Assembly (NCBI GenBank): GCA_017461235.1
Contig: JAFTYU010000019.1
Coordinates: 1 to 41,370 of the forward strand
Origin: Clostridia bacterium
Lineage (GTDB): Bacteria; Bacillota; Clostridia; Oscillospirales; Acutalibacteraceae
DNA: 41,370 bases
Reading direction: 5' to 3'
The notes under the pieces: model-generated
What the model saw: the letters and a program-made list of their open reading frames with translations, nothing else
Database searches by the model: none
Told to the model about the DNA's origin: nothing
Translations under genes and position numbers: made by a program
Shown: one piece after another, positions 8,066-12,694 of the stretch
Numbering within the stretch: position 1 is the first letter of the stretch
Layout of the letters: every line of letters starts with the position of its first letter

Positions 8066-8136
8066 AGTAACACGTCCTTTTTTATGTTTTTTATATTTTT
8101 ACCATTGGTTTTGTTATTATTCTTAAATTGACAGGG

Positions 8137-8165
8137 TTGATAATTATAAGTTTTTATAGTATAAT
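8137..8165 (+). promoter_or_regulatory. Sigma-A-type promoter for the hydrogenase maturation operon
   Basis: TTGATA (8137-8142), a 17-base spacer and TATAAT (8160-8165). Transcription would start near 8172, at the first strand of the structured leader. Confidence 0.75.
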
Positions 8166-8171
8166 GAAGCT

Positions 8172-8265
8172 GTACCTGACATAAAGGTTTATCCTGAGTG
8201 AAAGGTGCGGTGAAAACATAGGATAATTATATGTTGCCGTACCTTCTCGGGGTGCGGCATTTTTT
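8172..8265 (+). promoter_or_regulatory. Structured leader RNA with terminator/antiterminator switch (candidate riboswitch)
   Basis: Four segments alternate as GTACC (8172-8176), GGTGC (8204-8208), GTACC (8239-8243) and GGTGC (8251-8255). Segments 3 and 4 form a terminator: TGCCGTACC (8235-8243) with GGTGCGGCA (8251-8259), then six T. Segments 2 and 3 form an antiterminator: AAGGTGCGG (8202-8210) with CCGTACCTT (8237-8245). An inner stem AACATA (8215-8220) with TATGTT (8230-8235) stacks within the antiterminator. Segments 1 and 2 can also pair, which would release the terminator. The loop GGATAA (8221-8226) is complementary to TTATCC (8189-8194), a possible pseudoknot. I could not match it to a riboswitch class I know. 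Ligand or protein partner is unknown. Confidence 0.7.
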
Positions 8266-8284
8266 AGTTTTTTCGGAGGTTTCT

Positions 8285-8542
8285 ATGGCTTCAAGAGTGG
8301 GCGTTATCAGTATAATTGTTGAGAATGGGGATTCTGTTGAAGAACTCAACGGACTTCTTCATAAATACGGCGAATATATTGTTGGAAGAATGGGTATTCC
8401 TTATCGGCAAAGGAAAATTAATATTATAAGTGTGGCTGTTGATGCACCGCAGGATATTATATCGACTTTGAGCGGTAAAATCGGAAATCTGAAAGGTATA
8501 AGTGCCAAAACGGTATTGTCGAATGTCATAAACGATGAATAA
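8285..8542 (+). CDS. TM1266-like iron-only hydrogenase system regulator
   Basis: An 85-residue protein starting MASRVGVISIIVENGDSVEE, matching the small ACT/NikR-C-like family often found beside [FeFe]-hydrogenase maturation genes and annotated as an iron-only hydrogenase system regulator. Family features seen are the conserved LHKYGEYIVGRMGIPY (about residues 27-42) and the beta-alpha repeat ending GKIGNLKGISAKTVLSNV. It has no DNA-binding helix-turn-helix, so it may bind a ligand or protein. CGGAGG lies 7 bases before the ATG. It is first in the operon, directly behind the switch-like leader, and overlaps hydE by 8 bases. Its molecular function is not established. Confidence 0.88.
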   Translation: MASRVGVISIIVENGDSVEELNGLLHKYGEYIVGRMGIPYRQRKINIISVAVDAPQDIISTLSGKIGNLKGISAKTVLSNVINDE

Positions 8543-9623
8543 TGCTTTTTTACTTGCCGAAAAACTTTATCAAACCCATTCGTTGAGCACTGAAGAATAT
8601 GAAACACTTATAAAAGAACGTACACCTGAAACGGCACGATATCTTACTGAAAAAGCAGATGAAATAAGACGGAAATTTTACGGCAATCAGGTTTTTGTAC
8701 GGGGTCTTATTGAGATAAGCAATATCTGCAAAAACGATTGTTATTATTGCGGTATCAGAGGTAGTAATGCTAACTGTCAACGCTACAGACTTACTCCGCA
8801 AGAAATACTTGAGTGTTGCAAAGAAGGATATGCATTAGGGTTCAGAACCTTTGTTATGCAAGGTGGCGAAGACGGGTTTTTCACAGATGAAATTCTTTGT
8901 GATTTAATATGTGAGATTAAAAAAATTTATCCTGATTGTGCCGTTACGCTGTCTTTAGGTGAGCGCAGTAAAGATAGTTACGAGAAGCTTTACAATGCCG
9001 GAGCCGACAGATATCTGTTAAGGCACGAAGCGGTTGATGAAGAGCTTTACAGCAAGCTTCATCCCGATAAAATGCAGTTGGAAAACCGACTCCAATGTGT
9101 CAGAAATCTTAAGGAAATCGGGTTTCAGACCGGATGTGGTTTTATGGTGGGTGCACCTTGCCAAAACGCATCGCATATAGCGAAGGATTTAAAATTCATT
9201 GAGAGTTTTAAACCTGATATGTGCGGTATAGGGCCTTTTGTACCACATAAAGACACAATTTTTAAATCATTTGAGCAGGGCAGCGCGGAGTTGACAATAT
9301 ACTTGTTGTCAATAATACGTCTCATTTGTCCTAACGTGCTCTTGCCGGCAACAACAGCTCTCGGTACGGTTGACCCGACCGGGCGAGAAAAGGGAATTCT
9401 TGCAGGTGCAAATGTTGTTATGCCCAATCTTTCTCCCGAAACTGTTCGTAAAAAATACGACCTTTATGACAATAAAATAAGCACCGGTGCAGAAAGTGCA
9501 CAATGTTTGAAAAATCTTGAAGAACGGATGGAAAGCATCGGTTTCAAAGTGGTTTACAAACGCGGTGACGTAATAAAATTATCTGACGGGGAAGAAAAAA
9601 CTGACCCAAAGAAAGGAGCTTAA
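8535..9623 (+). CDS. hydE: [FeFe]-hydrogenase H-cluster radical SAM maturase HydE
   Basis: Radical SAM enzyme that acts after HydG in building the diiron subcluster of [FeFe]-hydrogenase. Of 362 residues, the [4Fe-4S] radical SAM triad is C65, C69 and C72 in the motif NICKNDCYYCGIRG. This is followed by the Gly/Glu motif MQGGEDGFF and a TIM-barrel with LRHEAVDEELYSKLHP, all typical of HydE. The ATG overlaps the end of the upstream regulator gene, and hydG begins 2 bases after the stop, so the cluster is translationally coupled. Biotin synthase and PylB are relatives, but sequence and context point to HydE. Confidence 0.95.
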   Translation: MNNAFLLAEKLYQTHSLSTEEYETLIKERTPETARYLTEKADEIRRKFYGNQVFVRGLIEISNICKNDCYYCGIRGSNANCQRYRLTPQEILECCKEGYALGFRTFVMQGGEDGFFTDEILCDLICEIKKIYPDCAVTLSLGERSKDSYEKLYNAGADRYLLRHEAVDEELYSKLHPDKMQLENRLQCVRNLKEIGFQTGCGFMVGAPCQNASHIAKDLKFIESFKPDMCGIGPFVPHKDTIFKSFEQGSAELTIYLLSIIRLICPNVLLPATTALGTVDPTGREKGILAGANVVMPNLSPETVRKKYDLYDNKISTGAESAQCLKNLEERMESIGFKVVYKRGDVIKLSDGEEKTDPKKGA

Positions 9624-9625
9624 TT

Positions 9626-11074
9626 ATGGCGATTTATAATCCGAAATCATTAAAGGCAGAAGAATTTATTAACGATGGCGAAATTCTTGAAACAATAAAA
9701 TACGCCGAGAAAAACAAAAATAATATTGAACTGATTGACGAGATTTTAGAGAAAGCCCGTCCTTTAAAAGAAGGTAACGGCTATCGTTGCACAGGACTTA
9801 CACATAGGGATGCGGCAGTGCTTCTTGCTTGCGAAATACCCGAAAAAATCGACGAGATGTTCAAGCTTGCAAACGATATCAAGCAGAAATTTTACGGTAA
9901 CAGAATTGTTATGTTTGCGCCGCTTTATCTTTCAAATTACTGCGTCAACGGCTGTGTCTATTGTCCTTATCATATGAAGAATAAGCACATTGCCCGTAAA
10001 AAGCTGACACAGGAAGAAGTAAAAAAAGAGGTTATCGCATTACAGGATATGGGTCACAAGCGCCTTGCAATTGAAGCGGGCGAAGACCCTAAAAATAATC
10101 CCATTGAGTACATACTCGAATGTATCAAAACTATTTATAGTGTTAACCACAAAAACGGTGCTATCCGCCGTGTAAATGTTAACATTGCGGCAACTACCGT
10201 TGAAAATTACCGCAAATTAAAGGATGCGGGAATCGGTACATATATACTTTTTCAGGAAACATATCATAAACAGAGTTATCTCGAGCTTCATCCCACAGGC
10301 CCCAAACATGACTATGATTACCATACCGAGGCTATGGACAGAGCTATGGAAGGCGGTATTGATGACGTAGGTCTGGGTGTGCTTTTCGGACTTGAGCGAT
10401 ATATGTATGAGTTTGTGGGTCTTCTTATGCATGCAGAGCATCTTGAAGCGGTTCACGGTGTAGGCCCCCATACGATAAGTGTTCCCAGACTGAAACGTGC
10501 AGATGATATTGATCCCGATACATTTGATAACGGTATAAGTGATGAAATGTTTAAAAAGATTATTGCTTGTATCCGTATCGCCGTTCCTTATACGGGTATG
10601 ATTATCTCCACACGCGAAAGCGAGAAAGTCCGCGGTGAAGCTTTACATCTCGGAATATCTCAGATAAGCGGTGCATCACGAACATCTGTCGGCGGATATA
10701 CTGAAGAAGAAAGGCCTCACGATTCCGAACAGTTTGATGTTTCGGACCAGCGTACTCTTGATGAGGTTGTGCATTGGCTTATGGAAAACGGTCATATGCC
10801 ATCGTTCTGTACTGCCTGTTACCGTGAGGGCAGAACAGGAGACAGATTTATGAGTCTTTGCAAAAGCGGTCAGATTCTTAACTGCTGTCATCCGAACGCT
10901 CTTATGACCTTGAGCGAGTATCTTCAGGACTACGCTTCTGACAAAACCAAAGCTACAGGCTATAAACTTATTGAGCGCGAACTCGAAAAAATACCTTCTG
11001 CCAAAGTTCGGGAAATAGCCGAAAAGAACATAGAAGATATTAAAAACTCCAATCGACGTGATTTCAGATTTTAA
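9626..11074 (+). CDS. hydG: [FeFe]-hydrogenase H-cluster radical SAM maturase HydG
   Basis: Tyrosine lyase that supplies CO and cyanide ligands as an Fe(CO)2(CN) synthon. The 482-residue protein has the radical SAM triad C106, C110 and C113 in NYCVNGCVYCPYH. ThiH-like barrel motifs follow, such as IEAGEDP and VGPHTISVPRLKRADD. The C-terminal CO-forming domain carries the second cluster ligands in CTACYREGRTGDRFMSLC (from about residue 395), followed by LNCCHPNAL. Both clusters therefore appear complete. AGGAG precedes the ATG and the gene is 2 bases after hydE. ThiH is the nearest relative but lacks this C-terminal cysteine pattern. Confidence 0.96.
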   Translation: MAIYNPKSLKAEEFINDGEILETIKYAEKNKNNIELIDEILEKARPLKEGNGYRCTGLTHRDAAVLLACEIPEKIDEMFKLANDIKQKFYGNRIVMFAPLYLSNYCVNGCVYCPYHMKNKHIARKKLTQEEVKKEVIALQDMGHKRLAIEAGEDPKNNPIEYILECIKTIYSVNHKNGAIRRVNVNIAATTVENYRKLKDAGIGTYILFQETYHKQSYLELHPTGPKHDYDYHTEAMDRAMEGGIDDVGLGVLFGLERYMYEFVGLLMHAEHLEAVHGVGPHTISVPRLKRADDIDPDTFDNGISDEMFKKIIACIRIAVPYTGMIISTRESEKVRGEALHLGISQISGASRTSVGGYTEEERPHDSEQFDVSDQRTLDEVVHWLMENGHMPSFCTACYREGRTGDRFMSLCKSGQILNCCHPNALMTLSEYLQDYASDKTKATGYKLIERELEKIPSAKVREIAEKNIEDIKNSNRRDFRF

Positions 11075-11083
11075 GGTGATTTT

Positions 11084-12283
11084 ATGAGCTTGAACGAAAC
11101 AGTATCCGCAGAGCGTGTGCATATAGGTTTTTTCGGCTTGCGTAATGCAGGAAAATCAAGCGTTGTGAACGCAGTGACAGGGCAACAGCTTGCGGTGGTA
11201 TCTGATATAAAAGGTACCACGACCGACCCTGTGAAAAAAGCGATGGAGCTTTTGCCCATAGGACCTGTAGTGATTATTGATACCCCCGGCATTGATGATG
11301 AGGGGACTCTGGGTGAAAAAAGAGTTGAAAAAACACGGGAGATTTTAACCAAGACCGATGTAGCGGTGCTGGTTATTGATGCTTTGCGCGGTAAGACGGA
11401 AGCAGATAGAAGACTGATTGAACTTTTCAAAAAACGAAGCCTTCCTTTTATTGTTGCATATAACAAAAGTGACGTTGCTGAAAACTTAATTGAGTTGTAT
11501 GAAAATGAAATCCTTGTAAGTGCCGTAACAGGTGAGAATATAAATGCCCTTAAAGAAAAAATCGGCGTGCTTGCAAAAACCAAAAAAACGCCCGGATTTA
11601 TCGTTTCGGATATGTTGTCGGAAGGTGATACGGTGGTTCTTGTAACACCTATTGATGAATCTGCACCAAAGGGCAGAATCATTCTTCCGCAACAAATGAC
11701 TTTAAGAGAAATTCTCGACAAAAACTGTACAGCAATAGTTTGTCAGGATGCTCAGTTAAAGGGTGCTTTAGAAAATTTAAAACAAAAACCGAAGCTTGTT
11801 ATTACTGATTCGCAAGTTTTCGGCAAGGTGGCATCCGTTGTGCCCGAGAACGTTAAGTTGACCTCCTTTTCAATACTTATGGCACGCTATAAAGGTGACC
11901 TTGAAGCTCTTGTTGAAGGTGCAGTTAAATTATCCGGGATTAAAGACGGGGATAAAATACTCATAAGCGAAGGTTGTACGCATCATCGACAGTGTAATGA
12001 TATAGGTACGGTGAAAATACCCAATTGGATAAGGGAATTCACAAACAGCAATCCCGAATTTGTTTTCACTTCGGGCGGTGATTTTCCGAAGGAGTTGACG
12101 GGGATATCTCTGATTGTTCATTGCGGCGGATGTATGCTCAACGAAAAAGAGATGAAATATCGTCTTCAGATTGCAAAAGAGCAAGGTGTACCCGTTGTAA
12201 ATTACGGTGTAGCAATAGCGCAGATGCATGGTATTCTGAAACGCAGTCTTGAAATATTTCCTTCTTTTTATGAAAGGGTATGA
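11084..12283 (+). CDS. hydF: [FeFe]-hydrogenase maturation GTPase HydF
   Basis: Scaffold GTPase that holds the diiron precursor and delivers it to the hydrogenase. Of 399 residues, the N-terminal G domain has the P-loop GLRNAGKSS (18-26), DTPGIDD (about 66-72) and NKSD (about 124-127). After a dimerisation domain, the C-terminal domain has the cluster-binding motifs GCTHHRQC (about 297-304) and HCGGCM (about 346-351), the usual CxH and CxxC pattern. It lies 9 bases after hydG with AAGGTGA upstream. It completes the maturation set E, G and F in one operon. The hydrogenase catalytic gene hydA is not in the window. Confidence 0.96.
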   Translation: MSLNETVSAERVHIGFFGLRNAGKSSVVNAVTGQQLAVVSDIKGTTTDPVKKAMELLPIGPVVIIDTPGIDDEGTLGEKRVEKTREILTKTDVAVLVIDALRGKTEADRRLIELFKKRSLPFIVAYNKSDVAENLIELYENEILVSAVTGENINALKEKIGVLAKTKKTPGFIVSDMLSEGDTVVLVTPIDESAPKGRIILPQQMTLREILDKNCTAIVCQDAQLKGALENLKQKPKLVITDSQVFGKVASVVPENVKLTSFSILMARYKGDLEALVEGAVKLSGIKDGDKILISEGCTHHRQCNDIGTVKIPNWIREFTNSNPEFVFTSGGDFPKELTGISLIVHCGGCMLNEKEMKYRLQIAKEQGVPVVNYGVAIAQMHGILKRSLEIFPSFYERV

Positions 12284-12286
12284 AAA

Positions 12287-12694
12287 ATGAAAGTAATCTT
12301 GTGCCTTGATGATAATAACGGGATGCTTTTTAATAAGCGTCGTCAGAGTCGTGACAGAATTGTTACGGAAGATGTTTTTTCGGATTTGAATGGTCAGAAG
12401 CTTAAGATATCACCTTTTTCAGAAAAACTTTTTGCAGATTATTCTCAAAGTGTATGTGTTGATGATGATTTTTTGAACAAAGCTGATGAAAATGATGTCT
12501 GTTTTGTTGAGGACAGGGCTCTTGCAACTTTTGATAATATAACAGAGATTGTTGTATATAAATGGAATAGAGTTTATCCTGCGGATTTTAAGTGTGATGT
12601 TGATTTTGAAGCTTTTGCTATGGTTGAAGAATATGAATTTCAAGGTTTTTCACACGAAAAAATAACAAAGCAGATTTTTCGTAAAAAGACTTAA
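12287..12694 (+). CDS. Conserved clostridial protein of unknown function
   Basis: A 135-residue soluble acidic protein starting MKVILCLDDNNGMLFNKRRQ, with internal VEDRALATFDNITEIVVYKW and NRVYPADF segments and a C-terminus ending SHEKITKQIFRKK. I recall near relatives in many Clostridia that automated pipelines sometimes label ribonuclease Z. I see no metallo-beta-lactamase HxHxDH motif and the protein is far too short, so that label should not be used. It starts 3 bases after the hydF stop and is followed by the nuclease gene, so it is likely read from the same transcript. No catalytic motif was recognised. Confidence 0.8.
   Translation: MKVILCLDDNNGMLFNKRRQSRDRIVTEDVFSDLNGQKLKISPFSEKLFADYSQSVCVDDDFLNKADENDVCFVEDRALATFDNITEIVVYKWNRVYPADFKCDVDFEAFAMVEEYEFQGFSHEKITKQIFRKKT

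Follow-up and report, generated by a model that had tools for sequence, protein, structure and literature searches.

The leader of the [FeFe]-hydrogenase maturation operon at positions 8172-8265 is, as judged by comparative sequence analysis, a real and conserved transcription switch that is unlisted in Rfam. Its core hairpin is probably an RNA operator that is read by a protein and exerts autogenous negative control of [FeFe]-hydrogenase maturation, with TM1266, the product of the first gene, as the putative reader. The first-pass annotation had described a switch-like leader ahead of TM1266, hydE, hydG and hydF, and this description stands: the leader is conserved, lies outside Rfam, and covaries in both of its alternative stems. 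The annotation had also called it a "riboswitch or protein-controlled attenuator". It had further considered a metabolite, iron-sulfur or redox signal. Of the two readings, control by a protein is favoured here by the dependence on TM1266, which extends to unlinked TM1266 genes, and by a second hairpin copy, overlooked in the first pass, next to the ribosome-binding site of hydG.

The operon and its leader

The window, i.e., the whole stretch of DNA that was analysed, is a single contig of 41,370 bases from a genome assembly of 2.15 Mb in total. Family profile matches gave the gene order TM1266-like, HydE, HydG, and HydF between 8285 and 12283 (Table 1). An open reading frame of 135 amino acids without a Pfam or NCBIfam match was located immediately 3' of hydF (12287-12694, forward strand).

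Table 1. Positions and supporting evidence of the leader, operon and second-copy features in the window.
Feature	Position	Strand	Evidence
Promoter-like site, sigma-70-type, TTGATA-17-TATAAT	8137..8165	+	11/12 positions match
Core hairpin, proposed TM1266 operator/anti-antiterminator	8172..8208	+	fold -15.1 kcal/mol, z -4.74; covariation
Antiterminator (8202-8211 with 8236-8245, around hairpin 8215-8220/8230-8235)	8202..8245	+	fold, complementarity, covariation
Intrinsic terminator (hairpin 8236-8258, U-run 8260-8265)	8236..8265	+	
Shine-Dalgarno CGGAGG of TM1266	8274..8279	+	sequence
TM1266-like gene (PF21699 / TIGR03959), proposed RNA-binding regulator	8285..8542	+	family match
hydE	8535..9623	+	TIGR03956, 567.9 bits
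Second hairpin copy	9582..9612	+	sequence; fold z -1.28; R2 12.4 bits; strong copies in relatives
Shine-Dalgarno AAGGAG of hydG (ATG at 9626)	9613..9618	+	sequence
hydG	9626..11074	+	TIGR03955, 929.4 bits
hydF	11084..12283	+	TIGR03918, 555.9 bits

Terminator and antiterminator as alternatives

The four complementary segments proposed in the first pass (GTACC at 8172-8176, GGTGC at 8204-8208, GTACC at 8239-8243, and GGTGC at 8251-8255) and the promoter before the first of them were found in the sequence, and the two alternative folds, segments 1:2 plus a terminator or an antiterminator, were reproduced computationally with the antiterminator strands of Table 1. Positions 8171-8260 fold into hairpin 1, a middle hairpin, and the terminator at -34.4 kcal/mol (z -4.98), and none of 200 shuffled sequences was equally stable. 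When the 3' half of the terminator is removed (8171-8245), the minimum is the antiterminator, at -22.7 kcal/mol (z -3.76). The antiterminator is formed by the 3' strand of the core (AAGGUGC), which is able to pair with the 5' arm of the terminator.

This competition was recovered among relatives. Complementarity between the 3' strand of the outer core helix (P1) and the terminator 5' arm averaged 17.0 in 81 leaders with a detectable terminator, vs 13.9 with arms from other species (p 5e-8) and 12.5 with shuffled arms (p 3e-14). Within P1, YCU covaried with AGR in the 68 of 80 leaders that could be scored ([51,3;0,14], p 5.5e-12), with 51 C-G, 14 U-A, and 3 U-G pairs. AGR also covaried with YCUU of the terminator arm in the 44 of 80 that could be scored ([30,0;4,10], p 4e-7), with 30 G-C and 10 A-U pairs and four mismatches. 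Because the same 3' letter of P1 covaries with both of its partners, the P1 5' letter and the terminator arm, the core hairpin and the antiterminator appear to have been selected as mutually exclusive alternatives.

A promoter-like site lay within 40 nt of the core in 70 of 81 leaders (shuffled mean 49), and its -10 box ended 8-13 nt 5' of the core in 47 of these 70, as compared with 31 of 245 sites in shuffled sequences; in the window it ends 9 nt before the YCU of the core. The core is therefore predicted to be placed at the 5' end of the transcript. The first-pass annotation had noted this predicted position of segment 1 and counted it as a weakness; the 47 leaders indicate that it is a feature of the family.

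Structure and covariation of the core hairpin

The core follows the consensus YCU-GA-NNN(N)-AA-AGR-loop-YCU-GA-NNN(N)-AA-AGR, in which two dyad-related purine internal loops flank a covarying helix of 3-4 bp. The first 38 nt of the leader by themselves fold as ((((((..(((..(((.....)))..)))..)))))) with -15.1 kcal/mol, giving P1 (8172-8177/8203-8208), a GA/AA loop (8178-8179/8201-8202), the middle helix (8180-8182/8198-8200), an AA/GA loop (8183-8184/8196-8197), the inner helix (8185-8187/8193-8195), and the apical loop (8188-8192); the two 2x2 purine loops of this fold are related by the dyad. Many regions upstream of PF21699 genes in relatives carry CCUGACAYAAAGG...CCUGAGUGAAAGG or variants of it.

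In 46 aligned copies, 82.5% of cells pair vs 73.4% after shuffling, two-sided changes occur at 11 of 12 core pairs, and covariation scores 0.311, compared with 0.149 for shuffled and at most 0.111 for slid alignments; the counts are biased by the fitting of this alignment to the covariance model. The window has CAU/GUG as its middle helix, and other copies have CAUC/GAUG, CACC/GGUG, CGCC/GGCG, CGUU/GACG, CUU/AAG, and further variants; the third pair of this helix is the least kept pair among the 3-bp forms. The purine loops are the most conserved letters of the element, and the apical loop differs in sequence and length among copies. A 5' UA in the inner loop was accompanied by a 3' GC in 11 of 11 leaders, and GC occurred in 11 of the 70 others (p 6e-8); this association is, from the aligned letters, a non-canonical covariation.

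A pseudoknot between TTATCC (8189-8194) and GGATAA (8221-8226), which had been suggested as a further contact, was rejected. Both motifs exist in the window, and TTATCC overlaps the conserved inner helix of the core; the pairing was not seen in the close relatives L012, L017, and L026, and across 68 leaders the loop-to-spacer complementarity showed no excess (11.35 vs 10.67 shuffled, p 0.21).

A second copy at the hydG ribosome-binding site

Immediately before the Shine-Dalgarno sequence of hydG, the window reads UCUGACGGGGAAGAAAAAACUGACCCAAAGA-AAGGAG. This second copy overlaps the 3' end of hydE and folds with the same architecture (UCU 9582-9584/AGA 9610-9612, a GGG/CCC helix, and an inner AG/CU); its fold z-score is only -1.28 and its R2 score is weak (Table 1). 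At the same place, two congeners carry copies that score 44.2 bits (L017) and 35.0 bits (L026) with R2, and further copies precede hydG in other genera and families (L010, L064, L088, L089, L090, L095, and L098). No second copy was found in the congeners L011, L016, L025, and L027. By the structure descriptor, 13 of 41 named hydG starts carry a copy, as compared with 3 of 2050 shuffles, and the helices of the hydG sites in the named loci include CGGG/CCCG, UGGC/GCCA, and UCGG/CCGA.

In the fold of the window hydG site, the Shine-Dalgarno sequence lies outside the hairpin and is without a sequestering partner. Since it is unpaired, blocking it would need something bulky on the hairpin, and a 31-nt site beside a predicted unpaired Shine-Dalgarno sequence suits a steric block by a protein.

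Distribution of the element

PF21699 was present in 56 of 99 relatives. The first-pass annotation had suggested a covariance-model search and a comparison with Rfam. A covariance model (R1), for which the leader of the window was combined with those of 15 relatives (16 sequences), was used in a context-blind search of 295 genomes of the order (E <= 0.1). It matched 28 genomes and found further copies ahead of the same genes: of 27 non-self places (two of which, L053 and L055, come from R1 training genomes), 21 were before TM1266, two were before HydE without TM1266, and four were without hyd context. As expected of a regulator-controlled leader, TM1266 is thus the first gene downstream both in the window and at these 21 places. 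The four places without hyd context are L070, L071, L075, and L078, of which L070 (G290) runs up to the edge of its contig.

A second model (R2, 40 sequences) was trained partly on R1-found loci, and its scores at those loci are therefore partly by construction; the R1 search of the order and the R2 search of the phylum are the independent ones. R2 matched 60 genomes at E <= 1, and its 28 best matches (E <= 1e-4) all adjoin TM1266, hydE, or hydG. In a phylum sample of 348 genomes, it matched 15 genomes at 16 places (E <= 0.1), namely, the window, seven places before TM1266-hydE, hydE, or hydG, three before the S component of an ECF transporter, and five without such context (L110-L113 and L118). 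A wider regulon was rejected, as those R2 matches away from hyd loci that were inspected (in G000, G497 (C8), G248, and G264) lie within or antisense to coding sequence. With the structure descriptor, the element was found no more than 300 nt upstream of TM1266 in 34 of 79 loci (80 named loci, one too short); the reverse strand gave none in 79, and shuffled sets gave 0.05 each. The positive loci included MAGs labelled Lachnospiraceae, Acidaminococcaceae, Erysipelotrichaceae, and Desulfovibrio (possible misbinning), as well as Loigolactobacillus rennini DSM 20253. In the context-blind searches, the element was found mostly before TM1266, hydE, or hydG across many Bacillota families.

The three ECF cases (L107, L108, and L109, at about 1500-1560) belong to one genus (G463, G497, and G574). 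The hairpin overlaps the Shine-Dalgarno sequence of the S component gene with its P1 3' strand; the S component was PF12822 in the two genes tested, and the gene upstream is presumably trpS-like. The transporter may import something that the H-cluster needs, or the hairpin may be a recruited copy. Two neighbouring hairpin copies precede TM1266 in G425 (L351, 2443-2530), perhaps as a tandem operator. Degenerate leaders were seen upstream of TM1266 in the congeners L011 (G014), which contains repeated insert-like sequence, and L025 (G003); with R2, G014 gave no site and the site in G003 was weak.

Co-occurrence with TM1266

Hyd loci were compared between genomes with and without TM1266 by means of a general descriptor, which was widened after sequences of both groups had been viewed. 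The element was found at 54 of the 94 loci in the first group and at none of the 22 in the second (p 1.2e-7). In this limited sample the RNA occurs only with the regulator gene, as expected of a protein-controlled attenuator. Controls on the 94 loci gave two sites after shuffling and none on the reverse strand. When collapsed by GTDB family, which is the sole correction for relatedness in this comparison, the counts were 32 of 52 vs 0 of 17 (p 2.7e-6). Seven families contained members with and without TM1266: three (f14, f26, and f34) had sites only in the members with TM1266, and four had none.

The 94 loci comprised 62 from the phylum sample (38 with a site) and 32 from the order (16 with a site), and the 22 comprised 14 and 8. 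The 32 order loci were chosen down the list from about 74 genomes with HydE and TM1266 that lacked an accepted R2 match, and they work against the result because R2 had missed them. Two genomes with only a distant PF21699 match and no site (G393 and G438) and HydE-like matches of about 280-320 bits were excluded before counting. An earlier, stricter descriptor gave 14 of 62 vs 0 of 14 in the phylum sample (p 0.042). R2 matches alone gave 39 of 123 vs 0 of 8 (p 0.10); the R2 genome search uses strict filters, and direct reading of the loci is more sensitive. The TM1266-lacking locus L241 scored 26.5 before HydF (threshold 28). No site was called with the general descriptor in 40 of the 94 loci, and some of the called sites (e.g., L333 and L247) may be chance matches.

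The association also holds where TM1266 lies outside the fetched stretch (15 of 33 vs 0 of the 22 TM1266-lacking loci, p 8.7e-5; 14 of 32 by a stricter count, since TM1266 is about 1.4 kb beyond the fetched stretch in G456). Conversely, 11 of 11 RNA-containing genomes that were checked carry PF21699, mostly not beside the RNA. All 40 RNA-containing genomes of the order carry it as well, a count that is partly circular because most were accepted by nearness to TM1266; this circularity is not shared by the 22-locus comparison or by the unlinked cases. In families f67 and f118 (L120-L126), TM1266 is located away from the hyd genes in a conserved cluster with genes that we take to be DivIVA-, SepF-, and YlmG-like and of the cell-division type, and the element is still present in the leader of hydG. 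In G191, a divergent TM1266 (about 66 bits) goes together with an element before a hydG-hydF-hydE operon (L085, 566-608), and its congener G123 has a like element where a contig ends (L086, 500-542); this possible sub-family would be useful for studying specificity. Overall, the co-occurrence of TM1266 and the RNA is correlative, with 22 TM1266-lacking hyd loci in the sample.

TM1266 has 85 residues, and 2nzc (four chains) is its sole convincing solved relative. Its fold is presumably ACT/ferredoxin-like. An alignment of 37 proteins shows conservation of at least 90%, or invariance, at R4, N22, R35, G37, P39, G64, K65, and K75; the basic residues among these are R4, R35, K65, and K75. The literature describes TM1266 as a putative iron-only hydrogenase system (transcriptional) regulator and places it, by prediction, in the Rex regulon of C. 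thermocellum, where its orthologue is Clo1313_1572 (PMC8457756). In Thermotoga neapolitana it is listed among genes induced together with hydE and hydG (PMC7039931). The passages on TM1266 in both papers give neither a mechanism nor an RNA target.

Proposed mechanism and alternative explanations

In the proposed mechanism, TM1266 would bind the core hairpin, probably as a dimer whose subunits each occupy one half-site. The hairpin is dyad-symmetric and therefore invites a dimer, as does the RAT hairpin for LicT (PMC3369936). Bound TM1266 would hold the AAGG strand in the hairpin, so that the antiterminator could not form and RNA polymerase would stop before TM1266, and on the second copy it would keep ribosomes off hydG; both sites would thus repress. 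If TM1266 were scarce, titrated, or inactivated by a signal, the antiterminator would form and hydG would be translated. The signal may be an H-cluster building block or the iron-sulfur state.

A metabolite or ion riboswitch, in which the hairpin binds an H-cluster building block, tyrosine, SAM, or Fe to cause termination and TM1266 is a passenger, would share the compact conserved core with its expression platform, the use of both termination and ribosome-binding-site outputs, and, in one genus, the riboswitch-like association with an ECF transporter S component. It is nevertheless considered unlikely, because none of the 22 hyd loci from TM1266-lacking genomes has the RNA even though the enzymes are encoded, the RNA persists where TM1266 is unlinked, and the hydG site is without a partner that could sequester the Shine-Dalgarno sequence. 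The apparent link to TM1266 argues against sensing by RNA only. That link would also be seen if TM1266 modulated or merely accompanied another reader, such as HydF, HydG, HydE, or a general RNA-binding protein; all of the maturases are co-encoded, and binding by TM1266 is itself inferred. The 22 loci that lack the RNA do have HydE, HydG, and HydF, which are therefore not sufficient; this makes this reading quite improbable and TM1266 the best candidate reader. A factor-free attenuator or a plain conserved terminator, whose loops are not specifically recognised, agrees with the folding of the leader by itself into the terminating form; it is hardly credible given that the purine loops, unneeded for attenuation, are the most conserved letters and that the hydG copy exists without a terminator.

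With the protein-read operator as the preferred reading, the balance also tips, if less firmly, towards TM1266 founding a new family of RNA-binding regulators. Such a small protein, lacking a recognised DNA-binding domain, would use one dyad-symmetric hairpin operator for both termination and the block of the hydG ribosome-binding site. It would tune the assembly of [FeFe]-hydrogenase throughout Bacillota and perhaps outside this phylum as well, given one MAG labelled Desulfovibrio.

Novelty and comparison with known systems

Against Rfam 15, the leader had no match at the gathering score. The sole such match in the window was a ZMP/ZTP riboswitch (RF01750; 40444-40578, forward strand, 40.3 bits, gathering score 39), and 18 loci of relatives gave no match. 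At E up to 10, the best match of region 8100-8300 was sau-6072 (25.5 bits vs 50); this and the other sub-threshold matches (S774, PyrR, L10 leader, and others) were dropped, as all were below their cut-offs. The element was not described in the main texts ranked highest when the literature was searched for TM1266, for riboswitches in connection with HydG, or for surveys of structured RNAs that mention hydrogenase, nor in the relevant passages of PMC8040213, PMC11109978, PMC8632094, PMC2965389, PMC11124144, PMC6429828, and PMC7266159; it is possible that it was listed earlier under another name.

TM1266 has carried a regulator label without a mechanism, and the operator turns this label into a direct test with an 85-residue protein and a 37-nt RNA. 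If correct, the proposal adds an RNA family and probably a family of RNA-binding proteins, and explains how the amount of the [FeFe]-hydrogenase maturases is adjusted in many anaerobes. It would also give a point of access to the bacteria that produce H2 in the gut and in fermentations, as well as a compact terminator or ribosome-binding-site control part for anaerobes.

The RAT antiterminators of the CAT-type proteins (BglG, LicT, and SacY) are similar in that a hairpin with two internal loops competes with a terminator; both RAT loops are recognised in a similar way by a protein dimer (PMC3369936), and recognition by a dimer is proposed here for the two dyad-related loops. In RAT systems the hairpin serves as the antiterminator and switches genes on, whereas the hairpin described here lies 5' of the antiterminator and competes with it, so that the bound form is proposed to be an anti-antiterminator that turns genes off. 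In addition, its 2x2 purine loops are nearly symmetric, there is another copy at a ribosome-binding site, and TM1266 is by family search not a CAT-type protein. The ANTAR leaders (NasR and EutV) likewise have a dimeric RNA-binding regulator that controls a leader terminator, a role that is proposed here for TM1266; they contain two hairpins with critical loop residues A1 and G4 (PMC3369936), whereas each leader here has one conserved hairpin with a variable apical loop. Metabolite riboswitches share the 5' leader, the alternative folds, and the terminator or ribosome-binding-site output, and differ in that the present element matches no Rfam class and goes with a protein gene. A PyrR site (RF00515) was rejected, as the model match was 17.4 bits against a cut-off of 54. 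PyrR attenuators combine autogenous attenuation with an anti-antiterminator that is stabilised by the protein, an arrangement that is also proposed here.
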